Source: Rhizobium grahamii (GTDB taxonomy: Bacteria; Pseudomonadota; Alphaproteobacteria; Rhizobiales; Rhizobiaceae). From it: DNA of 64,000 bases. Positions within the stretch are counted from its first letter, which is position 1. Each line of letters starts with the position of its first letter. Positions 31,223 through 38,015 of this stretch are shown here, in pieces. The notes below the pieces were generated by a model. The model was not told the DNA's origin. It ran no database searches and saw only the letters and a program-made list of their open reading frames with translations. The position numbers and the translations under genes are program-made. The DNA is taken from NCBI RefSeq assembly GCF_009498215.1, contig NZ_CP043498.1:868001-932000 (forward strand), in the 5' to 3' direction.

Positions 31223-31410
31223 CCACTTGATAGGGTGTGCGCTGTAATGCAGCGCACACCGTTCCCGCCTGGGCCCCGTAACGTGTTGGCCGGGCAGGGA
31301 CGTTTCTGCCGCATTTTGCGGTTATAGTCGTTTTTCGCTATGGCGCGGCTCCCGGGAATTTGCCGCTTGCCATCGCAGTTGAGGGCTTCAAGCCCATGAA
31401 GGAGACAGGC
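31223..31410 (+). promoter_or_regulatory. rpoB-rpoC intergenic spacer with a strong hairpin
   Basis: 188 bases, unusually long for this pair. A perfect 11-base-pair stem GGTGTGCGCTG / CAGCGCACACC with loop TAATG (31234-31260) lies 12 bases after the rpoB stop, and a second imperfect GC hairpin follows (about 31265-31305). There is no T-run, so RNase processing or pausing is more likely than termination. Confidence 0.5.
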
Positions 31411-35622
<4,212 letters not shown>

Positions 35623-35645: not shown

Positions 35646-35679
35646 AAAAGCCGCCCGGAGCGATCCGGGCGGCTTTTTT
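35646..35679 (+). terminator. Intrinsic terminator of the rpoBC operon
   Basis: AAAAGCCGCCCGGA / TCCGGGCGGCTTTT stem with loop GCGA, followed by TTTTTTG. It is strong and ends the secE-rpoC unit. Confidence 0.94.
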
Positions 35680-35829
35680 GTTTGAGAAGAACAATGCGGG
35701 CGCGTTGATGCCGGCGATAGCCCGAACGAACCGTTGGTCGCATCTAGCGAGCTCAAGTGGGTTGAAACATATCAAATAGTCGGCAATGTTACGATGTTTT
35801 GCGACTCTCTTCCAGAAACAACGAGGCCG

Positions 35830-35979
35830 ATGTCAAACAACGAGCGCTCAGCGGGCGACGACAGCGGGAGCGCTATATTTAGGCGCGCCGATCTGGAGCG
35901 TCATCTCAAGGCTCGTTGGAATGAACGAGGCGAAGCGCTTGGTGACAATGAGCGGCTGGCGTTTCTGTTCCGGAGCTAG
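35830..35979 (+). pseudogene. Possible 5' part of a frameshifted accessory gene
   Basis: A 49-residue frame (MSNNERSAGDD...NERLAFLFRS stop) with GAGG just upstream of its ATG. It overlaps, in a different frame, the upstream open extension of the next gene. Joining them by a -1 shift near 35970 gives a smooth protein reading NERLAFLFR then ELVSHSLSRNAGIDLPYVDLW, consistent with one gene broken by an indel (or a sequencing error). In its own frame it does not resemble a complete protein. Confidence 0.4.
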
Positions 35980-36023
35980 TAAGTCACTCGCTCTCACGGA
36001 ATGCCGGCATAGACCTTCCTTAC

Positions 36024-36857
36024 GTGGATCTTTGGGTGGCAATTTTAGACGAGTGCATAAGCTGGTTGATCAGCTTGGATGTCGTAGTGCACGCCGGCCG
36101 ACTAGAGCGCGGCATGATGAAAAATTTTGAAAAATCCATTGTCGTCCTTCTGAGCAAGATAATCTCCGACCTGACGGCAATAAGGCATCTCGTCCTGGCG
36201 GGGTTTGACGGTTCCGCGCGAACGATTGTCCGTTCAGTAGCAGAATACATGGAGGTTCTGGTTGCCGTCGTGCATGAGCCAGCCTTTGCGGACGAGTTTG
36301 TGAAAAGTGACACGCCTGAAGCGTCGCAATTATTCTGGCAAACACATCTACGCGGCGGAAAGCTTCGTCGGAGGATAACCGCAGCTTGGGCAGACTTCTT
36401 TAAAACGATTGCTGCTCATGAACGCCAGCCGATAACAGAGACTTTTGCGAACTGGGGGAGAGGATCGAACCCGATACTATCGGGTTCAACCCATCCGAGC
36501 TTCGTTGGCGGGCTCTTCGCCGCTATTCCACTGAAGGGAAAGTATAGGGATGAAAACTGGCTTGGTACCTGGGGCGACAAAGCGGACTTTTCAGTAAATA
36601 CAATTTACATCATCACGCAGTTCATGTTCCCGATTCTGCTTCTGGGATCGAAATTTCCCTTCGGTATCGTAAGAGGGGGCGACACAGAACCCTTCCCTGC
36701 CTATAACCAGCATGACGAATTCCATCGGCACGTGCGGACCGGTCGTGATATCTTGGCGAGCCTAATAATCTCGCTATGCCAAGAAACTAACCGGCCTTTC
36801 GTGTTTCCGGAATTCGACCTGAGCATCTGGCCGCCCGAACAGGCTGATTCGGCCTAA
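36024..36857 (+). CDS. Uncharacterised accessory protein (DUF5677-like helical protein), probably 5' truncated by a frameshift
   Basis: 277 residues from a GTG at 36024, which has no ribosome site. The same frame is open upstream to 35952, so the true N-terminus may lie in the frame starting at 35830. The protein is mostly helical, with FDGSARTIVRSVAEYMEVLVAV and SARTIVRSVAEY as a HEPN/DUF5677-like block and a polar C-terminus (TGRDILASLIISLCQE, FEFDLSIWPPE). Relative to its neighbours it uses more A/T-rich codons. It lies alone between rpoC and a minus-strand gene, in an otherwise highly conserved locus, so it is likely a later insertion. Family call is tentative. Confidence 0.5.
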   Translation: MDLWVAILDECISWLISLDVVVHAGRLERGMMKNFEKSIVVLLSKIISDLTAIRHLVLAGFDGSARTIVRSVAEYMEVLVAVVHEPAFADEFVKSDTPEASQLFWQTHLRGGKLRRRITAAWADFFKTIAAHERQPITETFANWGRGSNPILSGSTHPSFVGGLFAAIPLKGKYRDENWLGTWGDKADFSVNTIYIITQFMFPILLLGSKFPFGIVRGGDTEPFPAYNQHDEFHRHVRTGRDILASLIISLCQETNRPFVFPEFDLSIWPPEQADSA

Positions 36858-36864
36858 TTGCTTA

Positions 36865-37158
36865 TCAGCTGAAGCGGATGATCGCCACTTCGCCTTCGAC
36901 GGCGCCCTGGTAGGCGGAGGCGTGCGGCTCCTCGGCCGGCACTTCGGTCAACATGCCGATCTGATCGAGGTCGGCTTCGATGAATCCCTCTTCAGCAAGC
37001 GCATTCAGAGCCTCGCGAACCGCGCTGTCTTCGTCGGCGGCCCTGAGCATCACGTGAAGATCGACGCCTTCGCTGTTGTCGGACTCGTAGCCCTTGCCGA
37101 TGATGATGAAGACCATCGGGCCTTCCGAATTGTTGTCGTTGTCGGGGGCAGTGATCAT
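36865..37158 (-). CDS. Conserved hypothetical acidic protein (97 aa)
   Basis: Acidic protein with strand pattern GPMVFIIIGKGYESDNSEGVDLHVMLRAADEDSAVREALNAL (fragments MVFIIIGKGYESDNSE and VDLHVMLRAADEDSAV), fitting a small alpha/beta fold, and ending EVAIIRFS. No family or function is recognised. ATG 37158 has AAGGA seven bases upstream. It is convergent with the accessory gene, with a seven-base gap, and divergent from the rpsL leader. Confidence 0.75.
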   Translation of the reverse strand: MITAPDNDNNSEGPMVFIIIGKGYESDNSEGVDLHVMLRAADEDSAVREALNALAEEGFIEADLDQIGMLTEVPAEEPHASAYQGAVEGEVAIIRFS

Positions 37159-37643
37159 CGGATGTCCTTCGATTCGAGATTTGAATCTGATTTCATGGGC
37201 TTAGCCCCTGTAATCAGTGATTCCATAGCCGGTTTTGTTGCATTGCCCAAGTTTATCTTGCCGTGCTGCAGCGAATTCGCCTAGAAGGCCCGAAAGAGCC
37301 CTCAAACGCCCGGTTTCAAGGCGTTTGGCCGAAGTTTATTTGTTAACAGCCTTGACGAGACGGCGGGAAACCAGTAGTACCCGCGCCATCCGGACCCATG
37401 TGAGGCATGGCCATTCGGGGCGACGCGCCTCGAAGATCACCTCAAACAAGGTTCGAAACGCACGTTGAAGATATGTTGCCTGTACGCATGACGCATTTCT
37501 TTATGCGTCCTCTGCTTTCTGTGGTCCATCTGTGAAAGCGGATCGGGCCACGTTTTGCGCATTGAGACACGCGTGTGATCTTGCCGGAGACGGCGTGAGT
37601 TACGCCCGCAAGGGTTCGAGATTTAAACGTAAGGGATGGTTGA
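37159..37643 (+). promoter_or_regulatory. str operon upstream region and rpsL leader
   Basis: 485 bases without a gene. After the divergent minus-strand gene it contains a probable promoter (37352-37380), a hairpin GACGCAT / ATGCGTC (37490-37509) followed by CTCTGCTTTCT that could act as an attenuator, and the remaining leader to the rpsL ribosome site. Confidence 0.55.
37352..37380 (+). promoter_or_regulatory. Probable sigma-70 promoter of the rpsL-rpsG-fusA-tuf operon
   Basis: TTGACG (37352-37357), 17-base spacer, TAGTAC (37375-37380). It is about 260 bases before rpsL, with no other gene between on the plus strand. Confidence 0.5.
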
Positions 37644-38015
37644 ATGCCTACCGTAAACCAGCTGATCCGCAAGCCGCGCCAGCCAAACGTAAAGCGTAAC
37701 AAAGTTCCTGCACTGCAGGAAAACCCGCAGAAGCGCGGTGTTTGCACACGCGTTTACACAACGACGCCGAAGAAGCCGAACTCGGCTCTCCGTAAGGTCG
37801 CCAAGATCCGTCTGACCAATGGCTTTGAAGTCATCGGTTATATTCCTGGCGAAGGTCACAACCTGCAGGAACACTCTGTTGTCATGATCCGTGGCGGCCG
37901 CGTAAAGGACTTGCCGGGCGTTCGTTACCACATCATCCGCGGCGTTCTCGATACCCAGGGTGTCAAGAACCGCAAGCAGCGCCGTTCGAAGTACGGTGCG
38001 AAGCGTCCGAAGTAA
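37644..38015 (+). CDS. rpsL: 30S ribosomal protein S12
   Basis: 123 residues; decoding-centre protein and streptomycin target. The loop [15 protein letters not shown] keeps the wild-type lysine of the streptomycin site, and [13 protein letters not shown] holds the second one. It is the first gene of the str operon; rpsG starts 76 bases later. Confidence 0.97.

Follow-up and report, generated by a model that had tools for sequence, protein, structure and literature searches.

Proteins of the DUF5677 family (Pfam PF18928) are of unknown function, and the family is reportedly named in a study on Salmonella severity. We analysed a stretch of 64,000 nucleotides of Rhizobium grahamii DNA, referred to here as the window, which lies on contig 1 of a 5.89 Mb genome assembled in two contigs. 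Between its rpoC and rpsL genes, the window carries a coding sequence for a helical protein that touches this family at its margin. The match to the DUF5677 profile scored 16.6 bits (E 0.0083) against a gathering cut-off of 27.1, and residues 39-97 of the open reading frame (ORF) beginning at GTG 36024 covered only positions 4-64 of the 166 in the profile, which is short of most of it. The same kind of weak match was given by the relatives L003, L012 and L013 and by the middle piece of a close homologue, L062, none of which reached the cut-off, and there was no match from L063 or L014. By the family's own rule the intact protein would not be a member, and judging from sequence its resemblance to DUF5677 would be a distant one. 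A literature search on the rpoC site or on such hotspots returned nothing, in what was a weak test because all terms had to co-occur.

The features of the locus are collected in Table 1, in which the gene on the left is presumably rpoC and the gene at the right end is taken, from its sequence, to be rpsL. A preliminary description of this DNA had proposed that about 2 kb containing an inserted, AT-richer gene separates the two. The total distance is indeed roughly 2 kb, but the extra part amounts to only ~1.18 kb. In a DNA-level comparison with 24 relatives of the genus, the flanks matched and the insert did not in 24 of 24 cases, which agrees with an insertion. Since the DNA from about 36865 to 38000, comprising the small convergent gene, the rpsL leader and rpsL, has matching DNA in 24/24 of these relatives, the stretch from ~36865 onwards represents the normal arrangement. 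The convergent gene itself hit no Pfam family at cut-off (0) and no NCBIfam model (0). The edges of the inserted segment fall near 35684 on the left and at 36847-36864 on the right, each blurred by some 20 bases.

Table 1. Coordinates of the features between and around rpoC and rpsL, in window positions
Feature	Position	Strand	Basis
rpoC (presumed), left neighbour	31360..35622	+	ORF list; start codon as listed mechanically; last part matches 24/24 genus relatives
rpoC terminator hairpin, perfect 14-bp stem then T run	35646..35677	+	Sequence
Inserted/replaced segment, ~1.18 kb	35684..36864	.	0/24 genus relatives match at DNA level; NUDIX gene instead in ten close relatives
GAGG, possible ribosome site of the original start	35823..35826	+	Sequence
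Frame a, N-terminal part of the broken gene, from ATG 35830, 49 codons + TAG (35977-35979)	35830..35979	+	ORF list; matches N-terminal pieces of L062 and L063
Frame b, rest of the broken gene, 301 codons + TAA; DUF5677-like helical protein; open after TGA at 35949	35952..36857	+	Homology; -1 relative to frame a
GTG listed as start by the ORF finder; not the original start	36024..36026	+	Homology extends upstream
Terminator-like hairpin at the gene end, weak, consensus match only	36841..36855	+	4 such sites in the region vs shuffle mean of 1.6
Small convergent gene of 97 aa; bounds the variable site on the right	36865..37158	-	ORF list; matching DNA in 24/24 genus relatives
rpsL (presumed)	37644..38015	+	ORF list

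The composition of the insert fits the AT-richness noticed at the outset. GC3 is 0.568 in frame b vs 0.79 in rpoC, and this difference marks the segment as foreign; the gene is a foreign insert. The list of ORFs contained no integrase or transposase within the insert, and no clear target duplication was seen at it, the repeats found being short and chance-like. The respective searches did not support a link to phages or plasmids: there were no phage matches at E 0.01 and no matches among viral contigs, and the plasmid search gave a single weak match, to a Gemmobacter plasmid (24% identity over 52% of the query). Plasmid searches that used the L063 protein or the window DNA as query gave none.

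The preliminary description had joined two reading frames of the insert by a -1 shift, one from ATG 35830 with its GAGG, the other open back to 35952, and had suggested a gene that is broken, recoded or affected by a sequencing error. These coordinates all check out. The split point falls within 35952-35979, the stretch that is open in both frames, and the open run of frame b exceeds the longest one obtained when the insert was mononucleotide-shuffled 2000 times (301 vs 244 codons). Two close homologues, each from another order of the class, served for comparison. L062 (genome G482) is 46% identical to frame b over query residues 2-294 of 301 and comes from a metagenome-assembled genome of an alphaproteobacterium, contig JAPYRI010000028.1; L064 has the same ORFs and is evidently the same record. 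L063 (genome G756) is 43% identical over residues 3-295 of 301. Like the window gene, both contain the same N-terminal part and nearly the whole of frame b; unlike it, each carries another lesion and lies in other genomic surroundings.

Frame a aligned with residues 2-33 of the N-terminal ORF of L062 with a score of 62 (12/32 identical; shuffle mean 21.6), and frame b aligned with residues 34-65 with a score of 97 (17/32 identical), identities being counted by hand from the printed alignment. In both cases the score was reached by 0 of 5000 shuffles. The two frames abut on L062 with a gap of 0 and an overlap of 0, and so the smooth join holds; the third frame of the window served as a control and scored 18, with shuffles averaging 19.1. 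Because a single ORF of L062 spans both parts contiguously, frames a and b of the window represent one gene that a -1 offset has divided. In L063, the piece directly before an insertion sequence (IS) matched frame a with a score of 48 (0/2000 shuffles, best shuffle 45), and the piece directly after the IS matched frame b. On these alignments, the frames from ATG 35830 and from 35952 are two parts of one gene. The homologue that keeps one frame across the split, and by which the window gene can be called a pseudogene, is L062, which is itself broken further downstream.

The same alignments bear on the ORF that is listed from GTG 36024, the first ATG, GTG or TTG of frame b. If this were the start of a shorter functional gene and the upstream frame were there by chance, the whole DUF5677-like core would still be encoded, as it lies entirely after the GTG. 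Against this, homology extends beyond 36024 on its upstream side, first in frame b and then in frame a, and no Shine-Dalgarno-like sequence was seen by eye before the GTG, as the preliminary description had also stated. Homologues starting at or near the GTG, which would have spoken for it, were looked for in L062 and L063, and both continue upstream. We therefore rejected the GTG as the start of the gene, a reading largely refuted by the alignment of frames a and b and to be regarded as very improbable. Low-level initiation at GTG 36024 could still yield a truncated protein with the DUF5677-like core.

A programmed -1 ribosomal frameshift that joins both frames into one functional protein was also considered, since the frames overlap within 35952-35979 with the appropriate offset. 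The frame of ATG 35830 contains no X XXY YYZ heptamer between 35830 and 35979, and the two-frame design is not conserved: a single frame is present at this point in L062, and in L063 just after the IS, these being the only two close copies available for the comparison. Recoding, which the preliminary description had left as an option, was consequently rejected on both counts and is extremely unlikely.

The remaining question was whether the frame split belongs to the organism or to its assembly. A sequencing or assembly error, with the gene intact in the organism, would agree with a single lesion between two parts that are otherwise open, and the two-contig assembly suggests long reads, whose usual errors are small indels. 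However, there is no homopolymer longer than 3 in the overlap of 35952-35979. As a gauge of assembly quality, ~70 kb of a relative, G001, around the same place was set against the window, and no conserved sense gene was seen to be split. Of 71 reference ORFs taken longest first, 45 had a match in the window, and for 36 of the 45 it extended over at least 90% in a single frame. Eight of the remaining nine could be explained: four were antisense to conserved genes, one lay between two genes, one was an msrQ-type gene intact in the window, one ran off the window and one differed only at its start. The ninth was short, with 39 matched residues. When all G001 ORFs were kept, 41,063 window bases lay under reference ORFs matched in one frame, a figure that includes overlapping antisense ORFs. 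In addition, both other close copies are broken as well, which makes decay of the gene credible. A frameshift lesion is thus the best reading, which bears out the first of the options in the preliminary description, and a sequencing error the less likely one; we regard an error as unlikely and put the odds of a true lesion over it at about five to one. The break appears to be recent, because there is one lesion only and 301 codons have stayed open.

We then considered which genes relatives carry at this site. The preliminary description had proposed an inspection of the rpoC-rpsL gap in related genomes, and among the 24 genus relatives the place of the insert proved to be nearly empty in 18 and to hold other genes in six. 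The distance between the left and right matches was 40-112 bases in those 18. It was 456-475 bases in four (G001, G008, G015 and G022), all with a NUDIX gene on the minus strand, 1301 bases in G014, with a di-haem cytochrome c peroxidase, and 1605 bases in G016, with a NUDIX gene, a PAP2 phosphatase and a small ORF that we take to be zinc-ribbon-like. Fifteen of the 24 loci were fetched, which took in every one of the six long gaps and nine of the short ones. In 14/15 the left match reached 35676-35704; the exception is L050, the locus of G014, where it goes no further than the rpoC stop codon at 35622.

Ten further relatives were taken as those with the best right-flank scores among the matches listed in 148 genus genomes (87-95% identity). 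A NUDIX gene occupies the site in 10/10 of them, and in 9/10 it lies directly between the flanks. All counts given for the site come from these ten relatives and the 24 above. In the exception, G051, an IS110-type transposase gene stands between rpoC and the NUDIX gene (L083 reverse complement, between 3740 and 5635). In G053, one of the nine, the NUDIX match falls in two frames (L080 1087-1500, minus strand), and the NUDIX gene may therefore be decaying too in one species. No NUDIX copy of this type was recognisable in the genome of the window, in a search that had no positive control and whose query protein matches relatives. The lineage of the window has probably swapped the NUDIX gene for the DUF5677-like gene, and replacement of a NUDIX gene would be the simplest history.

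Taken together, the observations suggest the following course. A gene encoding a helical, distantly DUF5677-like protein would have arrived by horizontal transfer and displaced the NUDIX gene that close relatives have downstream of the rpoC terminator, ahead of the small convergent gene. A frame-shifting lesion would then have arisen between 35952 and 35979, so that translation from the original start, ATG 35830, would now stop after 49 codons, and the long downstream part would be left without a good start of its own. The most likely outcome is a recent, non-functional pseudogene. The insertion, its foreign composition and, in the assembly, the distribution of one homologous gene over two frames are shown by the data; we infer from them that a NUDIX ancestor was replaced, that the organism itself carries the lesion and that the gene yields no functional product. 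We assign the whole account, a foreign DUF5677-like gene swapped for a NUDIX gene, then frameshifted and now a non-functional pseudogene, a probability of roughly 0.82.

All three close copies that were found are broken (3/3), each in a different way. L062 is interrupted further downstream by two in-frame stops, TAA and TAG, the first of them ~32 residues after the point that matches the split in the window. In L063 the interruption is an IS5-type element that encodes its transposase in two parts (DUF4096 and DDE_Tnp_1) and has CTAG on either side. We also observed that this element, at about 638-1484, has similar inverted ends and lies a few codons upstream of the equivalent of the window split. 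The lesions of the window gene and of L063 affect the same short N-terminal stretch. Breakage of 3/3 copies may be accidental, may reflect the loss of a gene that is seldom useful or may result from selection against the full protein, and three copies cannot decide among these. It is conceivable, though improbable, that the full-length protein is harmful outside a special setting, for instance as a growth-stopping effector of a defence system, and that acquired copies are repeatedly inactivated.

Protein and profile searches covered 100 and 148 genomes of the genus (the 148 include the source genome), 297 of the family, 397 of the order, 385 of the class and 398 of the phylum, in sets that overlap, as well as 14 genomes and 1 genome around two matches (L062 and L063). 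One of the genus searches returned, at E 0.001, nine genomes besides that of the window, and in eight of these the matches were short and weak (E 6e-5 to 7e-4) and lay around residues 177-247. More distant relatives with open ORFs of 284-363 aa were L003, L060, L061 and L013. Identity was 34% over query residues 64-209 for L003 and L060 and 34% over residues 64-193 for L061; these three are intact ORFs of 348, 363 and 328 aa, respectively, from three other genomes of the genus. Unlike the window gene, none of the three is located at rpoC: L003 and L060 lie between genes that we presume, from the ORFs, to be of the ComM-type AAA and cysK types, and L061 lies beside an unrelated ORF. A pattern scan of contigs returned only L064 and missed the genome of L063. 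Because of this, and because the search sets are limited, there may be intact close copies that the searches missed.

An alignment of eight sequences, the window included, contained seven invariant residues. Among them are the G, A, R and E of a 'GFD..AR...R...E' motif (residues 84-98 in window numbering) and the histidine of 'LS...HPS' (residue 181). The AlphaFold model was all-helical, at a mean pLDDT of 46.6, a low confidence that makes it not usable. A sequence search of the PDB gave nothing at E 1, NCBIfam gave no match, and PHROGs gave none for the window piece and two weak ones for L063 (E 0.13 and 0.23). The PADLOC models of anti-phage defence matched neither of the two window pieces, and among five relatives they matched only L013, weakly (PDC-S52, E 0.002). 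Our best guess, held with low confidence, is that the intact form would be a small helical effector or scaffold; the window copy is predicted to have no function.

We consider this to be an ordinary accessory gene that broke recently and occupies a variable site. For annotation, this means that the ORF listed from GTG 36024 should be labelled as part of a gene that is no longer intact. That each of the three close copies of a rare subfamily is broken is a minor lead. For the genus, genes turn over at the site that follows the rpoC terminator and precedes the convergent gene, although the core region around it is conserved, and its occupants range from none at all to a NUDIX gene, a NUDIX gene with PAP2, a NUDIX gene with an IS110-type element, a cytochrome c peroxidase and the DUF5677-like gene.
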